Shown here in pieces: positions 2,793 through 10,413 of a stretch of 32,325 nucleotides of DNA; position 1 is the stretch's first letter; the number at the start of each line of letters is the position of its first letter. The translations under genes were made by a program, and so were the position numbers. Where the stretch lies: assembly GCA_902580445.1 (NCBI GenBank), contig CACHKQ010000008.1, positions 1-32,325 on the forward strand. The letters run 5' to 3'. Under the pieces are notes generated by a model, which worked only from the letters and a program-made list of their open reading frames with translations, was not told where the DNA came from and searched no databases. The stretch comes from an uncultured Pelagibacteraceae bacterium. GTDB lineage: Bacteria > Pseudomonadota > Alphaproteobacteria > Pelagibacterales > Pelagibacteraceae.

Positions 2793-4046
2793 TTAGACAG
2801 CTAGCTTGAATGCAAAATCTTTACCTAAGCTTTTAGATAAGTGGACACAAAATCTTGCACCTTCAGCACCATCTATAACTCTGTGGTCATATGACAAAGA
2901 GATTGGTAATATTTTTCTTTCGATAAACTGACCATTTACTTTCTTCACTTTTTCAAATGTTTTTCCCACTCCTAGAATTGCCACTTCAGGAGGATTTATA
3001 ATTGGTGTGAAAAAATTTCCTCCGATACCGCCAAGGCTTGATATTGTCATAGAACCACCAAAGAATTCTTTTTTATCAATTTTTAGCTCCTTACATAATT
3101 TACTTACTCTTTTAAGTTCCTCATAAATTTCTTTTAAACCCATTTGATCAACATTTCTCATTTTTGGAACCATCAAACCATGTGGTGTATCTACGGCAAA
3201 ACCAACATGATAATATTTTTTAAATATTAATTTGTTAGTTGCAGTATCTATAGATGAATTAAAATTAGGATATTCTTTTAATGCATTAACTACAGCTCTA
3301 GTTATAAATGCTAAAGGACTTATTCTGATCCTTTCACCAGTATAGTTATCAATTAAAGTTGTTCTAAACTGTTCCATTTCAGTAATATCTATTTCATCGT
3401 GCTGGGTTACATGGGGAATTTCAGTCCAAGATCTTACAAGTTGAGGACCAGAAAGCTTCTTAACTCTTGGAAGATCTTTTATTTCTATTTCACCAAATGC
3501 TTCATGAGGATATTCATCTTTATAGATTTTTCTTTCAACCTTTCCTTCATTAACTGATACTTGTGATCTTACAAATTTTTTCACATCATCTTCAGTTACT
3601 CTTCCAGCTCTTTTGGATCCAGGTATCTGAACAATATCAGCACCTAATTCTCTTGCAAATTTCCTTACCTTTGGACTAGCAGACGAAATACCCTCAGCAG
3701 TTACTTTTTTAACTGCAGGAACTATTTCTTTTGGAGTTTCTTCCACTACTTCTTTTGGAGTAATATTCTCTTTTACTTTTGCTATCTTTTTACTTTCATC
3801 TTTTTTACCAATAGTTTCCAATGATAGAATCTCAGTTCCCTCAGAAACTTTGTCACCAACTTTAATATTTATTTTATTGATTTTTCCTTCATCTGTAGCA
3901 GGGACTTCGACACTCGATTTATCACTTTCCAAAGTTATTAAAGGATCGTTTTTTTTGATCTGTTGTCCAGACTTAACTAATACTTCAATCACTTCAACAT
4001 TTTTAAAATCTCCTATGTTTGGGACTAATATTTTTTTTTCAGACAT
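2793..4046 (-). CDS. aceF: Pyruvate dehydrogenase E2, dihydrolipoamide acetyltransferase
   Basis: 417 residues, core E2 of the pyruvate dehydrogenase complex, which moves the acetyl group from E1 to CoA. Domains in order: one lipoyl domain (residues 1-80, lipoyl-lysine K43 in ESDKSSVE), a Lys/Glu/Pro-rich linker (81-120), a peripheral-subunit-binding domain (about 123-158, SPKVRKFARELGADI), a second linker, and the acetyltransferase domain (about 190-417) with the catalytic DHRVIDG signature at 387-393 (H388). One lipoyl domain is short compared with the three of E. coli AceF, but the partner E1 gene supplies another. It lies 6 nt downstream of aceE, so the two form one operon. No dihydrolipoamide dehydrogenase (E3) gene is in the window. 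The EamA-type gene begins immediately after the stop codon. Confidence 0.95.
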   Translation of the reverse strand: MSEKKILVPNIGDFKNVEVIEVLVKSGQQIKKNDPLITLESDKSSVEVPATDEGKINKINIKVGDKVSEGTEILSLETIGKKDESKKIAKVKENITPKEVVEETPKEIVPAVKKVTAEGISSASPKVRKFARELGADIVQIPGSKRAGRVTEDDVKKFVRSQVSVNEGKVERKIYKDEYPHEAFGEIEIKDLPRVKKLSGPQLVRSWTEIPHVTQHDEIDITEMEQFRTTLIDNYTGERIRISPLAFITRAVVNALKEYPNFNSSIDTATNKLIFKKYYHVGFAVDTPHGLMVPKMRNVDQMGLKEIYEELKRVSKLCKELKIDKKEFFGGSMTISSLGGIGGNFFTPIINPPEVAILGVGKTFEKVKKVNGQFIERKILPISLSYDHRVIDGAEGARFCVHLSKSLGKDFAFKLAV

Positions 4047-4052
4047 TAAGTT

Positions 4053-7000
4053 TTATAATTTTGTTGGAAATACCTTTTCTTGATCTATATCGTATTTCTT
4101 AATAGCTTTTTCCGCATGTTTACTAGCTAGTAGTTGCTCTTTTGCCAAAGCACTTAAAGTGTATGTAACAATATGTTTTTTATCAACTTCAAAAAATTTT
4201 CTTAATTCTTTTCTTGTATCACTTCTTCCAAAACCATCAGTTCCCAATGTGTAAAAAGGTTTGTTCGTATAAGGTCTTATTTGATCAGCATGAGATCTAA
4301 TATAGTCAGATGCTGCAAATATAATGCCATCTTGTGAACCTAAGCATGTTTCAACATAGCTTTTTTTTGCTTTTTCTCCTGGATTTAATAAATTTTTCCT
4401 TTCAACTTCCATGCCATTTTTTTTCAGTTCATTAAAACTAGTGACACTCCAAACATCACAATCAATTCCGTATTCATCAGACAAAACTTTAGCTGCTTTT
4501 ATAATTTCTCTTAAAATTGATCCAGATCCTAACATCTGTACTTTTGCTTTTCCTTTTCCCTTATAACTTTTAAACAAATACATCCCTTTCAAAATTCCTT
4601 GATCTGAACCAGCAGGTTTTTCTGGGTGAGTATAATTTTCGTTCATTGCAGTTATGTAGTAGTAAATATTTTCTTTTTTCTCGTGCATCCTTTTTAATCC
4701 ATCTCTAAAAATAACTGCCATCTCATATGAAAATGTAGGATCATAACTCACACAGTTAGGTATTGCAGATGCTAATAGAAGACTATGGCCATCCTGGTGT
4801 TGTAATCCCTCACCGGCTAAGGTTGTTTTTCCAGATGTTGCCCCAATTAAAAAACCTCTTGTCTGAGAGTCGGCTGCGGCCCAAGCTAAGTCCCCAATTC
4901 TTTGAAAACCAAACATAGAGTAAAACAAATAAATAGGAACCATTTCTAAATCATGATTAGTGTAAGAGGTTCCAGCAGCAATCCATGATGACATTGCTCC
5001 TGCCTCTGTAATACCTTCTTGTAAAACTTGGCCACTTTTATCTTCTCTGTAAGAACTTAATTGTTCAGAGTCCACAGGTTCATACTTTTGACCTTCATGC
5101 GCATAGATACCAATTTTTTGAAAAAAACCTTCCATACCAAAAGTTCTTGCTTCATCCGCAATGATTGGCACTAGTCTTGGAGCAACATTTTTATCTCTAA
5201 GTAAATTCGCAAGCATTCTCACAAGGGCCATGGTGGTTGACATTTCCTTATCACCCGTGGACTTCATAAAACTTTCAAATATATCTTGAGGAGGTGTTTT
5301 AACTGGTTTTGCAAAAGTGGTTCTCTCAGGAATGTGTCCACCAAGCTTAACTCTGCAATTTTTTAAATATTTTATTTCTGGTGAATTTTCTGATGGTTTG
5401 TAATATTCAATATTTTTAACCTGCTTATCAGTAAGTGGCACATTAAATCTATCTCTGTAAAATAATAAATCTTCCTCGTCCAATTTCTTTTGTTGGTGTG
5501 TTGTATTTATACTCTCACCAGATTTACCCATTCCATAACCTTTAATTGTTTTAGCTATTATAACAGTTGGCTTACCTTTGCATTGAACAGCAGCATGATA
5601 AGCTGAGTAAACTTTATGAGGATCGTGTCCTCCTCTATTTAATTTCCAAATATCAGCATCAGTCATATTTGCTACCAAGTCTTTTAATTCAGGATATTTA
5701 CCAAAAAATTTCTCTCTTACGTAAGCTCCACCTTTGGCTTTGAATGCCTGATATTCACCATCGACTGCTTCAGTCATTCTTTTAACTAGTAAACCAGTTT
5801 TATCTTTAGATAAAAGTTGATCCCAGTAAGAACCCCAAATAACTTTGATTACATTCCATCCTGATCCTCTAAATCTACCTTCAAGTTCTTGAATAATTTT
5901 TCCATTACCTCTTACAGGCCCGTCCAATCTTTGAAGGTTACAATTTATAACAAAAATTAAATTATCCAGTTTCTCTCGTGCTGCTAGTCCCACTGCACCA
6001 AAACTTTCAGGTTCGTCCATTTCACCATCACCCAAGTGACACCAAATTTTTCTATCCTGATCTTTTAAAAGACCTCTGTTAATTAAATACTTAGTAAACC
6101 TTGCTTGATAAATTGCCATCATTGGTCCAAGTCCCATAGATACAGTTGGGAACTGCCAAAATTTTGGCATCAACCATGGATGCGGGTAAGAGGATAATCC
6201 ACCTTTTTCAACTTCTTGTCTAAATTTATCCAATTGTTTTTCTGATATTCTTCCCTCTAAAAAAGCTCTTGCATACATACCTGGTGCACTGTGACCTTGA
6301 AAATAAACTAAATCTCCTCCAAATTTATTATTTTTTGCTCTCCAAAAATGGTTCATACCGACGTCATACAACGTTGCTGCAGATGCAAAAGTACCAATGT
6401 GACCACCTAACTCTGGATTTTTTTTGTTAGCTTTAACAACCATGGCAGCCGCATTCCATCTTATGTAAGCTCTAATTTTTCTTTCTAAGTTTTGATCACC
6501 CGGGGATCTGACGTCAGCTGTTGATGGTATAGTATTAATATAAGGTGTAGTTCTTGTATCAGGTAAAGTTAATCCTTGAGTATATGCTTCGTCAATTACT
6601 TTCTTAAGCAGATAACCTGCTCTAGAGGATCCATCTGACTTTACTACAGCTCTAAGCGAGTCCAACCATTCTTGTGTTTCCGCAGGATCTATATCATCTT
6701 TAGAAATTGGTTGAGCATAAATTGTTTCTCTACCATTCCTCAACCCATTTGTTTTTTCTGTGTGTTGAACTATTTCTTTTTTAGGTTTTTCAATTTCTTT
6801 TTTTGGAGAAGCAATTTCTTCTTTCTTCTCATTTTTACCTTCCAAGGTTGCAAGAATACTTCCTTCAGAAACCTTATCTCCAATTTTTACTTTTAATTCA
6901 GAAATTTTACCTTCAGTTGGGGAAGGCACCTCAACACTTGATTTGTCGCTCTCTAAAGTAACAATTGGATCGTTTTTTTTTACTTGGTCACCAGGTTTTA

Positions 7001-7067
7001 CAAGTACTTCGATTATCTCAACATCCTTAAAATCACCTATATCAGGAACAGATATATTCTTCGCCAT
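4053..7067 (-). CDS. aceE: Pyruvate dehydrogenase E1 (homodimeric AceE type) with N-terminal lipoyl domain
   Basis: 1004 residues. Residues 1-78 are a complete lipoyl domain with lipoyl-lysine K42 in ESDKSSVE, followed by a charged Lys/Glu linker (79-105). From about residue 110 the protein is a full-length AceE-type thiamine-diphosphate E1 (about 895 residues, close to the E. coli length): GHIGTF at 222-227, the ThDP/Mg motif starting GDGEMDEPES at 346 and ending at the NCN near 375, and an EGITEAGA stretch in the C-terminal half. It decarboxylates pyruvate and reductively acetylates lipoyl groups. A lipoyl domain on E1 is known for the beta subunit of heterodimeric alphaproteobacterial E1; on a homodimeric AceE it is unusual to me. 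The N-terminal 76 positions are about 66% identical (hand count, 50/76) to the AceF lipoyl domain. aceF follows after 6 nt. Confidence 0.95.
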   Translation of the reverse strand: MAKNISVPDIGDFKDVEIIEVLVKPGDQVKKNDPIVTLESDKSSVEVPSPTEGKISELKVKIGDKVSEGSILATLEGKNEKKEEIASPKKEIEKPKKEIVQHTEKTNGLRNGRETIYAQPISKDDIDPAETQEWLDSLRAVVKSDGSSRAGYLLKKVIDEAYTQGLTLPDTRTTPYINTIPSTADVRSPGDQNLERKIRAYIRWNAAAMVVKANKKNPELGGHIGTFASAATLYDVGMNHFWRAKNNKFGGDLVYFQGHSAPGMYARAFLEGRISEKQLDKFRQEVEKGGLSSYPHPWLMPKFWQFPTVSMGLGPMMAIYQARFTKYLINRGLLKDQDRKIWCHLGDGEMDEPESFGAVGLAAREKLDNLIFVINCNLQRLDGPVRGNGKIIQELEGRFRGSGWNVIKVIWGSYWDQLLSKDKTGLLVKRMTEAVDGEYQAFKAKGGAYVREKFFGKYPELKDLVANMTDADIWKLNRGGHDPHKVYSAYHAAVQCKGKPTVIIAKTIKGYGMGKSGESINTTHQQKKLDEEDLLFYRDRFNVPLTDKQVKNIEYYKPSENSPEIKYLKNCRVKLGGHIPERTTFAKPVKTPPQDIFESFMKSTGDKEMSTTMALVRMLANLLRDKNVAPRLVPIIADEARTFGMEGFFQKIGIYAHEGQKYEPVDSEQLSSYREDKSGQVLQEGITEAGAMSSWIAAGTSYTNHDLEMVPIYLFYSMFGFQRIGDLAWAAADSQTRGFLIGATSGKTTLAGEGLQHQDGHSLLLASAIPNCVSYDPTFSYEMAVIFRDGLKRMHEKKENIYYYITAMNENYTHPEKPAGSDQGILKGMYLFKSYKGKGKAKVQMLGSGSILREIIKAAKVLSDEYGIDCDVWSVTSFNELKKNGMEVERKNLLNPGEKAKKSYVETCLGSQDGIIFAASDYIRSHADQIRPYTNKPFYTLGTDGFGRSDTRKELRKFFEVDKKHIVTYTLSALAKEQLLASKHAEKAIKKYDIDQEKVFPTKL

Positions 7068-8626: not shown

Positions 8627-8704
8627 GGTCCCATAGCTCAATTGGATCAGAGCGTCTCGCTACGGACGAGAAGGTTGAGGGTTCAAATCCTTCTGGGACC
8701 TCCA
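8627..8704 (+). tRNA. tRNA-Arg (anticodon ACG)
   Basis: Folds by eye into a full cloverleaf: acceptor GGTCCCA (8627-8633) pairs with TGGGACC (8694-8700); D arm GCTC/GAGC; anticodon stem TCTCG/CGAGA with loop CTACGGA, anticodon ACG at 8662-8664; T arm GAGGG-TTCAAAT-CCTTC. The discriminator T8701 is followed by an encoded CCA. ACG is normally deaminated to ICG and reads CGU/CGC/CGA. The hisH start lies only 23 nt downstream, so the two could share a transcript. Confidence 0.97.
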
Positions 8705-8727: not shown

Positions 8728-9375
8728 TTGAGTAAAATTATTATAGTAGATACCGGTAGTAGCAATATTCTCAGTTTAAAAAAGGCTGTAGAAATTTTTG
8801 ATAATAATGTTGAGGTCACAACTAATTCTAACAAAATTTTGTCAGCAGATAAAATTTTTTTTCCAGGAGTCGGTGCTTTTAAAAAAGTTATGGATAATTT
8901 AGAAAAAAATAAATTAACCGAAACTTTAATGAAAACAAGAGATAAAAAAATACCTCTTCTTGGTATCTGTCTAGGTTTACAATTATTTTTTGATAGTAGT
9001 GAAGAGTTTGGAACAAGCAAAGGATTAGGTTTAATTAACGGAAATGTAAAAAAACTTCCTACAATTTCCCTAGAAAATCAAAGACTTAAAATTCCTAATA
9101 TGGGTTGGTTTAAAGTTGATTTAAATAATCAATTTATTAATGATAAATTTTCTAAATTTGTAAAATCAATAAATGAGAATGATCTGTATTACTTTGTGCA
9201 CTCATTTTTTGTAGATCCAATTGAAAAGAAGAATATTGTGGCAACTTACAATTTTGGAGGGCATAAAATCCCAGCCATAGTATCAAAAGATAATTTGATT
9301 GGATGTCAGTTCCATCCTGAGAAGAGTGGAAAAAAGGGATTAGAAATTATATCAAATTTTCTAAAATTATCTTGA
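8728..9375 (+). CDS. hisH: HisH-type glutamine amidotransferase
   Basis: 215 residues, class-I glutamine amidotransferase of the HisH family: FPGVGAF (about 45-51), nucleophile C81 in GICLGLQLF, and the H196/E198 pair in QFHPEKS. HisH releases ammonia from glutamine and passes it to HisF for imidazole-glycerol-phosphate synthesis in histidine biosynthesis. It starts with TTG after an AAGGAG site. No hisF or other his gene is in the window; the neighbours are a tRNA and surface-sugar genes. HisH paralogues also work with HisF2-like and WbpG-like proteins to make acetamidino sugars in some O-antigens, so the role here (histidine versus sugar amidation) is open. It converges with the epimerase gene, overlapping it by 9 nt. 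Confidence 0.85.
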   Translation: MSKIIIVDTGSSNILSLKKAVEIFDNNVEVTTNSNKILSADKIFFPGVGAFKKVMDNLEKNKLTETLMKTRDKKIPLLGICLGLQLFFDSSEEFGTSKGLGLINGNVKKLPTISLENQRLKIPNMGWFKVDLNNQFINDKFSKFVKSINENDLYYFVHSFFVDPIEKKNIVATYNFGGHKIPAIVSKDNLIGCQFHPEKSGKKGLEIISNFLKLS

Positions 9376-10413
9376 TGACAAAAGTTCATCAATAATTTTT
9401 TCAGAATTATATATTTGTTTCCATTTAGGGTAGTGATTTTTAAACTTTTTCATATTCGAAACATACCAAATATGATCACCAACTCTATTTTGTTTCTTAA
9501 GATCTTTTTTAATTGAGATACCTGTAAGTTTATAAATAGTATTTATTGCTTCTATTATAGAACAATTAGATTTTCTACCTCCACCCATATTATAAATCTG
9601 ACCAATTCTTGGTTTTTTAAAAAAATGCCAAAAACAATTTACAACATCATAACTATGGATGTTGTCTCTTACTTGTTTGCCCTTGTAACCGAAAATGTAA
9701 TATTTTTTTTTGTCCAAAGCAGTTTTCACCAAATATGATAAAAATCCATGTAGTCTTGCACCCGAGTGATTAGGTCCTGTTATGCATCCTGCCCTAAAAC
9801 ATACTGTTTTTAGACCAATATTTTTTCCATATTCTTGCACTGCAAGATCAGCATAACTCTTTGAAGCTCCAAAAAAACTATGTACACAGTTATCAATCGA
9901 CATGTTTTCTGTAATTCCATTTTTAAATGAATGACTATTTTTTATCTCCCATCTAGTTGATTTTTCTACCAATGGAAGTTTATTTGGATTATCTCCATAT
10001 ACTTTATTTGTAGACATAAAAATAAAGGGAGCATCGAAGCAATAGTTTTTAGTCATTTCTAATAGGTTGATTGTTCCCCTTGCATTTACATCAAAATCTT
10101 TAAATATATTATTTTTTGCCCAATCATGTGAAGGTTGTGCAGCAGAGTGGATTACTAGTTTTATATTTTTTTTATATTTTTTAAATATTTTTTTTACGGC
10201 ATTTTGTTCAGAGATATCTATATTGTAATGTTTATAATTTTTTATATTTTTCTCTAATTTTCTTCTAACCCAACTAATATCACCGTCTTTTCCAAAGAAT
10301 AATTTTCTTGAGTTATTATCTATTCCAATTATATCGAAACCTTTTTCTGAAAAAAAAGCAGAAGCTTCAGAGCCAACTAACCCACACGAACCGGTTACTA
10401 ATACAATTGACAT
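9367..10413 (-). CDS. NAD-dependent sugar epimerase, CDP-paratose 2-epimerase-like (SDR)
   Basis: 348 residues, extended short-chain dehydrogenase/reductase. The Rossmann motif TGSCGLVGSE is at the N terminus, AAQPSHDWA (about 91-99), MSTNKVYGD (133-141), the TGPNHSGARLHGF stretch near 212 and GYKGKQVRDNIHSYD near 245 all match proteins annotated as CDP-paratose 2-epimerase (tyvelose epimerase)-like. The likely job is modifying a nucleotide sugar for surface polysaccharide. The usual YxxxK catalytic motif reads FGASK here (F181, K185), so the canonical tyrosine appears to be phenylalanine; I recall this variant in this subfamily, but it makes the exact reaction uncertain. It follows uppP on the same strand and overlaps hisH tail to tail. 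Confidence 0.87.
   Translation of the reverse strand: MSIVLVTGSCGLVGSEASAFFSEKGFDIIGIDNNSRKLFFGKDGDISWVRRKLEKNIKNYKHYNIDISEQNAVKKIFKKYKKNIKLVIHSAAQPSHDWAKNNIFKDFDVNARGTINLLEMTKNYCFDAPFIFMSTNKVYGDNPNKLPLVEKSTRWEIKNSHSFKNGITENMSIDNCVHSFFGASKSYADLAVQEYGKNIGLKTVCFRAGCITGPNHSGARLHGFLSYLVKTALDKKKYYIFGYKGKQVRDNIHSYDVVNCFWHFFKKPRIGQIYNMGGGRKSNCSIIEAINTIYKLTGISIKKDLKKQNRVGDHIWYVSNMKKFKNHYPKWKQIYNSEKIIDELLSSR

Follow-up and report, generated by a model that had tools for sequence, protein, structure and literature searches.

Two adjacent genes on the minus strand of the stretch analysed here encode the E1 and E2 components of a pyruvate dehydrogenase (PDH) complex in an uncultured Pelagibacteraceae bacterium. 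The window, as we call the whole stretch, is 32,325 nucleotides of contig CACHKQ010000008.1 (C8 in our genome set; assembly GCA_902580445.1), and the genome it belongs to is 847 kb long and 82% complete. In the textbook PDH complex, the swinging arm connecting the three active sites is supplied by E2, and the lipoyl domain (LD) bearing that arm is tethered just ahead of the peripheral subunit-binding domain (PSBD) of E2. In the window, an LD also stands at the N-terminus of the homodimeric, AceE-type E1, and our subject is this fusion together with the LD-less E2 proteins found beside it in many relatives.

The E1 gene (7067 to 4053) is one open frame of 1004 aa with zero internal stops, and the plus strand of the same interval is stop-rich. 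Pfam recognises Biotin_lipoyl (PF00364, cut-off 22.1 bits), PDH_E1_M, Transketolase_N and Transketolase_C_1 in the protein. The NCBIfam family TIGR00759 (aceE) is matched over its full length at 1426.6 bits, well over its curated cut-off of 859.9, which places the protein in the homodimeric AceE family. An AceE protein usually begins close to the N-terminal region that binds the PSBD, and no domain precedes it; here the LD and a linker come first. The first-pass annotation had described an intact LD with K42 in the motif ESDKSSVE, a charged linker and a complete AceE-type E1, and had remarked that LDs are normally on E2 and sometimes on E3 or the beta subunit of a heterodimeric E1. Pfam, NCBIfam and the open frame agree with this description and its coordinates, and no frameshift or join was found.

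Structural comparison is consistent with these assignments. AlphaFold2 modelling of the full-length E1 gave a model that is poor overall (mean pLDDT 54.3), in which the LD is all-beta, with K42 at the turn between strands 34–39 and 44–48, so that the PF00364 match and the lysine in a beta-hairpin coincide; residues 78–131 have pLDDT below 50 and are read as a flexible linker. The best solved matches of the LD are 7b9k (residues 2–85) and 1qjo (residues 1–76), both E2p of PDH complexes, and that of E1 residues 124–1001 is 1l8a, which we take to be the E. coli enzyme. Just past the linker, E1 residues 124–165 align in phmmer with a 49-residue E1 segment of 9h1n chain C, so the docking segment is conserved.

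The E2 gene is separate and starts 6 nt past the E1 stop, and its product has one LD, an E3-binding domain and a catalytic domain. The single LD that the first-pass annotation saw on E2 is thus borne out by Pfam, but since the LD count of E2 ordinarily ranges from one to three (PMC8421416; articles are cited here and below for particular passages), one LD on E2 is insufficient to settle the changed stoichiometry it proposed. An inventory of PF00364 in the window genome returned three domains, on E1, on E2 and on a 144-aa frame (likely AccB), leaving one LD each on E1 and E2. LipB is present; no SucB domain turned up and the E3 is fragmentary in this genome, whose incompleteness may explain both. 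The features are collected in Table 1. Elsewhere in the window, a tRNA-Arg gene (acg; 8627–8704) lies upstream of a thiolase gene and is followed by a glutamine-amidotransferase-like frame (8728–9375) and a sugar-epimerase-like frame (9367–10413), both named by inspection only.

Table 1. Features of the E1 and E2 genes in window coordinates.
Feature	Position	Strand	Evidence
Pyruvate dehydrogenase E1, homodimeric (AceE type), lipoyl domain at the N-terminus, 1004 aa	4053..7067	-	Open frame, Pfam, TIGR00759
E1 lipoyl domain, residues 4-75	6843..7058	-	PF00364, 72.3 bits; genome profile search places it at C8:6843-7058
K42 codon, predicted lipoylated lysine	6942..6944	-	ESDKSSVE motif; K in 127/127 aligned SAR11 E1 lipoyl domains
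E1 charged flexible linker, residues 78-121	6705..6836	-	pLDDT <50 over residues 78-131; linker range in relatives
E1 N-terminal helical region, residues 124-165; expected binder of the E2 PSBD	6573..6698	-	phmmer alignment; PMC6270654
E1 catalytic part, residues 122-1002	4062..6704	-	TIGR00759 profile 2-883 of 885
E2 dihydrolipoamide acetyltransferase, 417 aa	2793..4046	-	Pfam, NCBIfam
E2 lipoyl domain, residues 5-75; missing in many relatives	3822..4034	-	PF00364, 65.4 bits
E2 peripheral subunit-binding (E3_binding) domain, residues 123-156	3579..3680	-	PF02817, 36.8 bits
E2 catalytic acetyltransferase domain, residues 190-407	2826..3479	-	PF00198, 243.5 bits

Spread of the fused E1

Within the SAR11 family as sampled, the E1-LD fusion is fixed. 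With stand-alone paralogues set apart, an N-terminal LD is present in all 151 complete SAR11 AceE open reading frames (126 distinct) that were fetched beside or without an E2, as one domain in 144 and as two in tandem in 7. The fusion also occurs in 80 of 80 named SAR11 loci, a count whose weight is lessened by the query that found them, which includes the LD. These loci stem from many separate assemblies, among them some with AG- names, presumably single-cell genomes. A search of the order with the AceE profile, unbiased by the LD, placed AceE over the cut-off in 61 of 117 genomes, all in the window's family, and every one of the 61 has an AceE frame of fusion size, 998–1133 aa (both among the matches listed). 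An assembly chimera, considered by us and named by the first-pass annotation as what would overturn its claim, is excluded by the recurrence of the fusion in the 80 named loci and the 151 complete frames. The tandem double LD (proteins of about 1110–1130 aa) is found in genera g2 and g5, at L122, L123, L168, L169, L170, L171 and L254.

Among the complete SAR11 E1 proteins fetched, those that lack an LD are confined to a short stand-alone AceE-like paralogue seen at four loci representing three genes (L272, L273 and L274; L124 holds the same gene as L273). The two stand-alone paralogues tested gave slightly better scores with TIGR03186 than with aceE, yet below the TIGR03186 cut-off, and the L273 paralogue adjoins genes resembling a TRAP transporter. 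Among the matches listed, AceE over the cut-off is missing from three of the 64 genomes of the family sample (G040, G076 and G105, family f1) and from G002 and G004 (family f2); in these five, the PF00364 matches are accounted for by SucB-like, AccB-like and other frames.

Outside SAR11, none of 44 distinct proteobacterial AceE genes carries an LD, a set that includes those listed with frames of at least 985 aa. The domain search and taxonomic survey proposed in the first-pass annotation thus separate all sampled E2-linked SAR11 AceE proteins, which are fused, from 0 of 44 elsewhere, with Proteobacteria as the taxonomic reach of the comparison. AceE was found in 11 of 385 genomes of the class sample and, among the matches listed, in 161 of 398 of the phylum sample, SAR11 being counted in both. 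When the LD and linker were searched against the 398 genomes, two frames outside SAR11 were long enough among the matches listed (1308 aa in G684 and 1078 aa in G855), neither of them at the position of AceE. A search of phage records returned eight with a match, four of which cover at least 80% of the query; three records filed as phage (CAKLQF020000016.1, CAKLQH020000013.1 and AFYI01000001.1) include aceE and aceF and resemble bacterial chromosomal DNA.

E2 proteins with and without a lipoyl domain

Downstream of the fused E1 in the 80 named loci, E2 has one LD in 59 and none in 19, and two have no E2 match within the stretch. We assembled 123 non-redundant E1–E2 pairs, in which the numbers of LDs on E1 and E2 are 1/1 in 81, 1/0 in 35, 2/1 in 3, 1/2 in 3 and 2/2 in 1; part of the set came from regions hand-picked for LD-less E2, so it gives no frequency estimate and in that respect counts against a broad reading. 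It omits pairs in which E1 or E2 is truncated at a contig or fetch boundary, exact duplicates, E1 without an adjoining E2 and LD-less E1 rows, and near-identical rows were kept. An E2 of the TIGR01348 type has at least one N-terminal LD, as the window E2 does and as E2 in 35 of the 123 SAR11 pairs does not. The changed arm arrangement that the first-pass annotation suspected is strongly supported by these LD-less E2 proteins in 19 of 80 named loci and 35 of 123 pairs.

The LD-less E2 is about 300 aa long and consists of the E3-binding and catalytic domains; all 13 that were scanned match E3_binding and 2-oxoacid_dh and give no lipoyl match. For the AlphaFold2 model of one of them (mean pLDDT 78.1), the second-ranked structural match is the catalytic domain of E. 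coli E2p (4n72), with a TM-score of 0.60 by query and 0.72 by target. In 34 of 35 cases a start codon lies 0–6 nt past the E1 stop and the protein enters the E3-binding domain almost at once. This spacing leaves no room for an LD gene split off between E1 and E2, an arrangement we considered and rejected. In one of the 34 there is a further in-frame Met, 65 nt upstream, and in the 35th our script found no domain motif.

The LD-less state recurs across the family. In a FastTree tree of the concatenated E1 and E2 cores, LD-less E2s fall in 10 separate clades with nine changes of E2 state; parsimony on an E2-only tree likewise gives nine, and an IQ-TREE tree of 45 chosen rows of the 123 gives nine, of which at least 7 are forced by branches with SH-aLRT of at least 95. 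In both the concatenated and the E2-only tree, the rooting group does not form one clade. The next open frame after AceE in non-SAR11 neighbours carries 1–3 LDs (flanks were cut at 1.5 kb), and most SAR11 E2 LDs form one group; on these two grounds we infer loss of the E2 LD, rather than gain, in many separate lineages.

In a tree of the LDs themselves, built from 28 selected genomes and a selection of other LDs, the SAR11 E1 LDs and first E2 LDs stand together, apart from those of other proteobacteria, and mostly split into an E1 group and an E2 group. Since they cluster first and then divide mostly by subunit, the tree points to an LD duplication that predates the diversification of the family. 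The largely separate groups also speak against recopying of the E2 LD from E1. Concerted evolution of the two was rejected, as an E1 LD is no closer to the E2 LD of its own pair (61% identity, 81 pairs) than to those of other genomes (62%).

The two arms differ in constancy. At the lipoyl-lysine position, K occurs in all 127 aligned E1 LDs and in 88 of 92 E2 LDs, and E or N replaces it in all four second LDs on E2 (L169, L173, L246 and L247, in the 123-pair set), which indicates that E2 arms decay also where they are retained. For the E1 LD, pairwise dN/dS comes to 0.025 in 268 comparisons of 1/1 genomes and to 0.069 in 25 comparisons of 1/0 genomes, where the E1 core gives 0.025 and 0.043; by these ratios the E1 LD is under purifying selection. 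The E1 linker, measured from the end of the LD to the motif DIDPxET in 122 of the 123 pairs, spans 45–87 residues, with a mean of 64.0 in 1/0 pairs (n = 35) and 49.7 in 1/1 pairs (n = 80). The longest, at L103 (87 residues), contains a tandem KEEILET-type repeat.

Eight genomes with an LD-less E2 (G017, G036, G056, G074, G086, G088, G090 and G115; 94–99% complete) were inventoried for PF00364. Seven have exactly three domains, on the E1 frame, on a frame of 441–451 aa and on a frame of 138–151 aa, and G056 adds a 22-bit fragment. The 441–451-aa frames are SucB-like: an E3 gene adjoins them, and domains of this type, where sampled, fall into a distant clade (SucB-like and AccB-like frames were named by their length and LD sequence, and SucB also by the E3 gene next to it, with no family search). 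An LD on E3 was ruled out in the eight genomes, each of which has one E3 gene of 466–474 aa that is filled by the E3 profile and has no PF00364 match, and no LD-less AceE paralogue was found in them among the matches listed. A general takeover of PDH by a heterodimeric E1 was also rejected, as TIGR03182 reaches E ≤ 1e-20 in 3 of 19 genomes, G056 with its LD-less E2 among them, and exceeds its cut-off in none. LipB was found in 18 of the 19 genomes searched; in G105 (C2:154964-155481) its match spans two open frames, possibly through a frameshift or assembly error.

A probable working arm on E1 and rival readings

The E1 LD is probably a working arm, held at E2 by the E1 N-terminus and able to replace the LD of E2. 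K42 would be lipoylated by LipB and LipA; E1 would then decarboxylate pyruvate and reductively acetylate its own LD or that of a neighbouring E1. The E1p N-terminal region is reported to interact mainly with the PSBD of E2 (PMC6270654), so docking of this region on the PSBD would anchor the E1 LD almost at the site of E2's own LD. The domain would have switched sides of the docking contact and stayed nearly in place, which is how the E2 copy could become redundant. From there the E1 LD could visit the acetyltransferase site of E2 to yield acetyl-CoA and pass on to the shared E3 for reoxidation. With the E. coli-like stoichiometry of 12 E1 dimers per 24 E2 (PMC6270654), one LD per E1 chain would give 24 arms per complex. 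The E1 arm would thus suffice for the cycle, and the E2 LD, no longer needed, would have been lost many times. It is likewise probable that many SAR11 bacteria have no arm on E2 and keep their sole arm on E1, held by non-covalent docking, and that the carrier role was given up several times independently, leaving E2 as a bare docking and transferase core.

Several observations weigh against this reading. Seven of the eight inventoried genomes share genus code g3, and one of the eight, G074, yielded no LipB, while G056 has an E1-alpha-like gene that, at 255 bits, falls short of the cut-off. A second AceE-like gene of 887–902 aa, too short for an LD, occurs in 8 of the 61 AceE-bearing family genomes (among the matches listed). 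The longer linker does not belong to 1/0 pairs alone, as three 1/2 pairs are also long-linkered (mean 63.0), and the independent pairs, which nearly always differ in the expected direction where they differ, are too few for any sign test to fall below 0.05. In one clade (L024:4159-5052 and its relatives L016 and L109), Asn replaces Asp in the HxxxDG active-site motif of the LD-less E2 (DHRVVNGAD). The LD tree has modest support (78 columns, 5 of 76 inner branches starred), and two divergent E2 LDs fall outside its main E2 group. The low confidence of the whole-E1 model belongs here as well.

In the most serious alternative, which we consider unlikely, the E1 LD is auxiliary and the E2 LD essential, and where the latter is missing SucB or GcvH stands in, acting in trans in the way E2p does for OdhA in Actinobacteria. 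Use of LDs in trans is reported for OdhA (PMC7568260, PMC10415282) and an SucB-like LD is present in the genomes with an LD-less E2. The PF00364 inventory found no separate carrier of the PDH arm in the eight genomes, GcvH being outside that inventory, a point that favours the alternative. The SucB-like LDs, however, are of a distant type set off by a starred split in the LD tree, and the E1 LD is never missing (151 of 151) and keeps its lysine throughout, whereas the E2 LD is missing in many lineages; if the E1 LD were auxiliary, the opposite pattern would be expected.

Somewhat less probable still is that the LD-less E2 is ancestral in SAR11 and that E2 LDs were regained several times. The count of changes is blind to gain and loss, the root state of the concatenated tree is ambiguous and does not distinguish the two, and the E2-only tree has an LD-present root because an LD-bearing group, itself not one clade, was chosen as root, so that root state is not independent evidence; all of this tells against our preference for loss. 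Against regain stand the LDs on the frame next to AceE in non-SAR11 flanks, the single family-wide group of most E2 LDs, which are not nested in local E1 LDs, and the near-equal identity of E1 LDs to their own and to foreign E2 LDs. It is more doubtful again that the E1 LD is a vestigial or regulatory passenger, such as a lipoate store or docking module, that takes no part in acyl transfer. Lipoylation of K42 is a prediction, which leaves some room for a passenger, but the invariant lysine, the low dN/dS (0.025–0.069) and retention of the E1 LD in every sampled pair with an LD-less E2 argue otherwise. Artefacts of assembly or of gene starts are hardly credible as the source of the LD-less E2 genes: many of the genomes are fragmented assemblies, yet the genes are complete, stop-bounded frames in many separate assemblies, are distributed by clade, start within 0–6 nt of the E1 stop in 34 of 35 cases and occur in genomes up to 99% complete.

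Comparison with known lipoyl carriers

A working arm on E1 would turn the SAR11 complex into a natural domain-transplant experiment, in which the arm was placed on E1 and then apparently dropped from E2 repeatedly. It makes testable how much the coupling of active sites owes to a covalent tie between the arm and the E2 core, whether docking through the PSBD is sufficient, and what part linker length plays. SAR11 ranks among the ocean's most abundant bacterial groups, and the annotation of one of its central carbon enzymes changes with this arrangement. The first-pass annotation had also allowed that the fusion might already be documented in this clade. We found no published account of it, nor of an LD-bearing homodimeric AceE beside an LD-less E2, in the mainly open-access literature searched (preprints and most subscription papers were outside the search). 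A homodimeric AceE that carries the arm next to an LD-less E2 is therefore apparently an undescribed variation on LDs known off E2.

Such LDs are reported on E3 and on heterodimeric E1 (PMC7873978). As in the Zymomonas-type E1-beta (NF008854/PRK11892), the SAR11 LD sits at the N-terminus of an E1 subunit, but the Zymomonas-type E1 is an alpha2beta2 heterodimer. NF008854 matches only residues 17–120 of the window E1, that is, the LD and linker, at 24.3 bits against a cut-off of 454, and its E1-beta part is unmatched. For Zymomonas, the text of PMC7873978 places the LD on the alpha subunit, whereas a title cited there says E1-beta. In the E3-LD systems (Mycoplasma hyopneumoniae, Neisseria, Alcaligenes), the domain is likewise on a subunit other than E2, and for M. 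hyopneumoniae it is reported on PdhD, the E3 (PMC7873978); the carrier there is E3, whereas SAR11 E3 lacks an LD (in the eight genomes with an LD-less E2) and the decarboxylase is the carrier.

The E. coli PDH complex (AceE-AceF-Lpd) shares with that of SAR11 the homodimeric AceE, a PDH-type LD, an E2 with E3-binding and catalytic domains and a separate E3. Its LDs are on E2 alone, whereas in SAR11 one is on the E1 N-terminus and E2 has one LD, one and a lysine-less second, or none. OdhA is a known case of an E2-type domain working with a borrowed arm (PMC10415282, PMC8146983), and the LD-less SAR11 E2 resembles actinobacterial OdhA in having an E2-type catalytic domain with no LD of its own. 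Unlike OdhA, a two-in-one E1–E2 protein, the SAR11 E1 carries its own LD, and its E1 and E2 are separate, adjacent genes.

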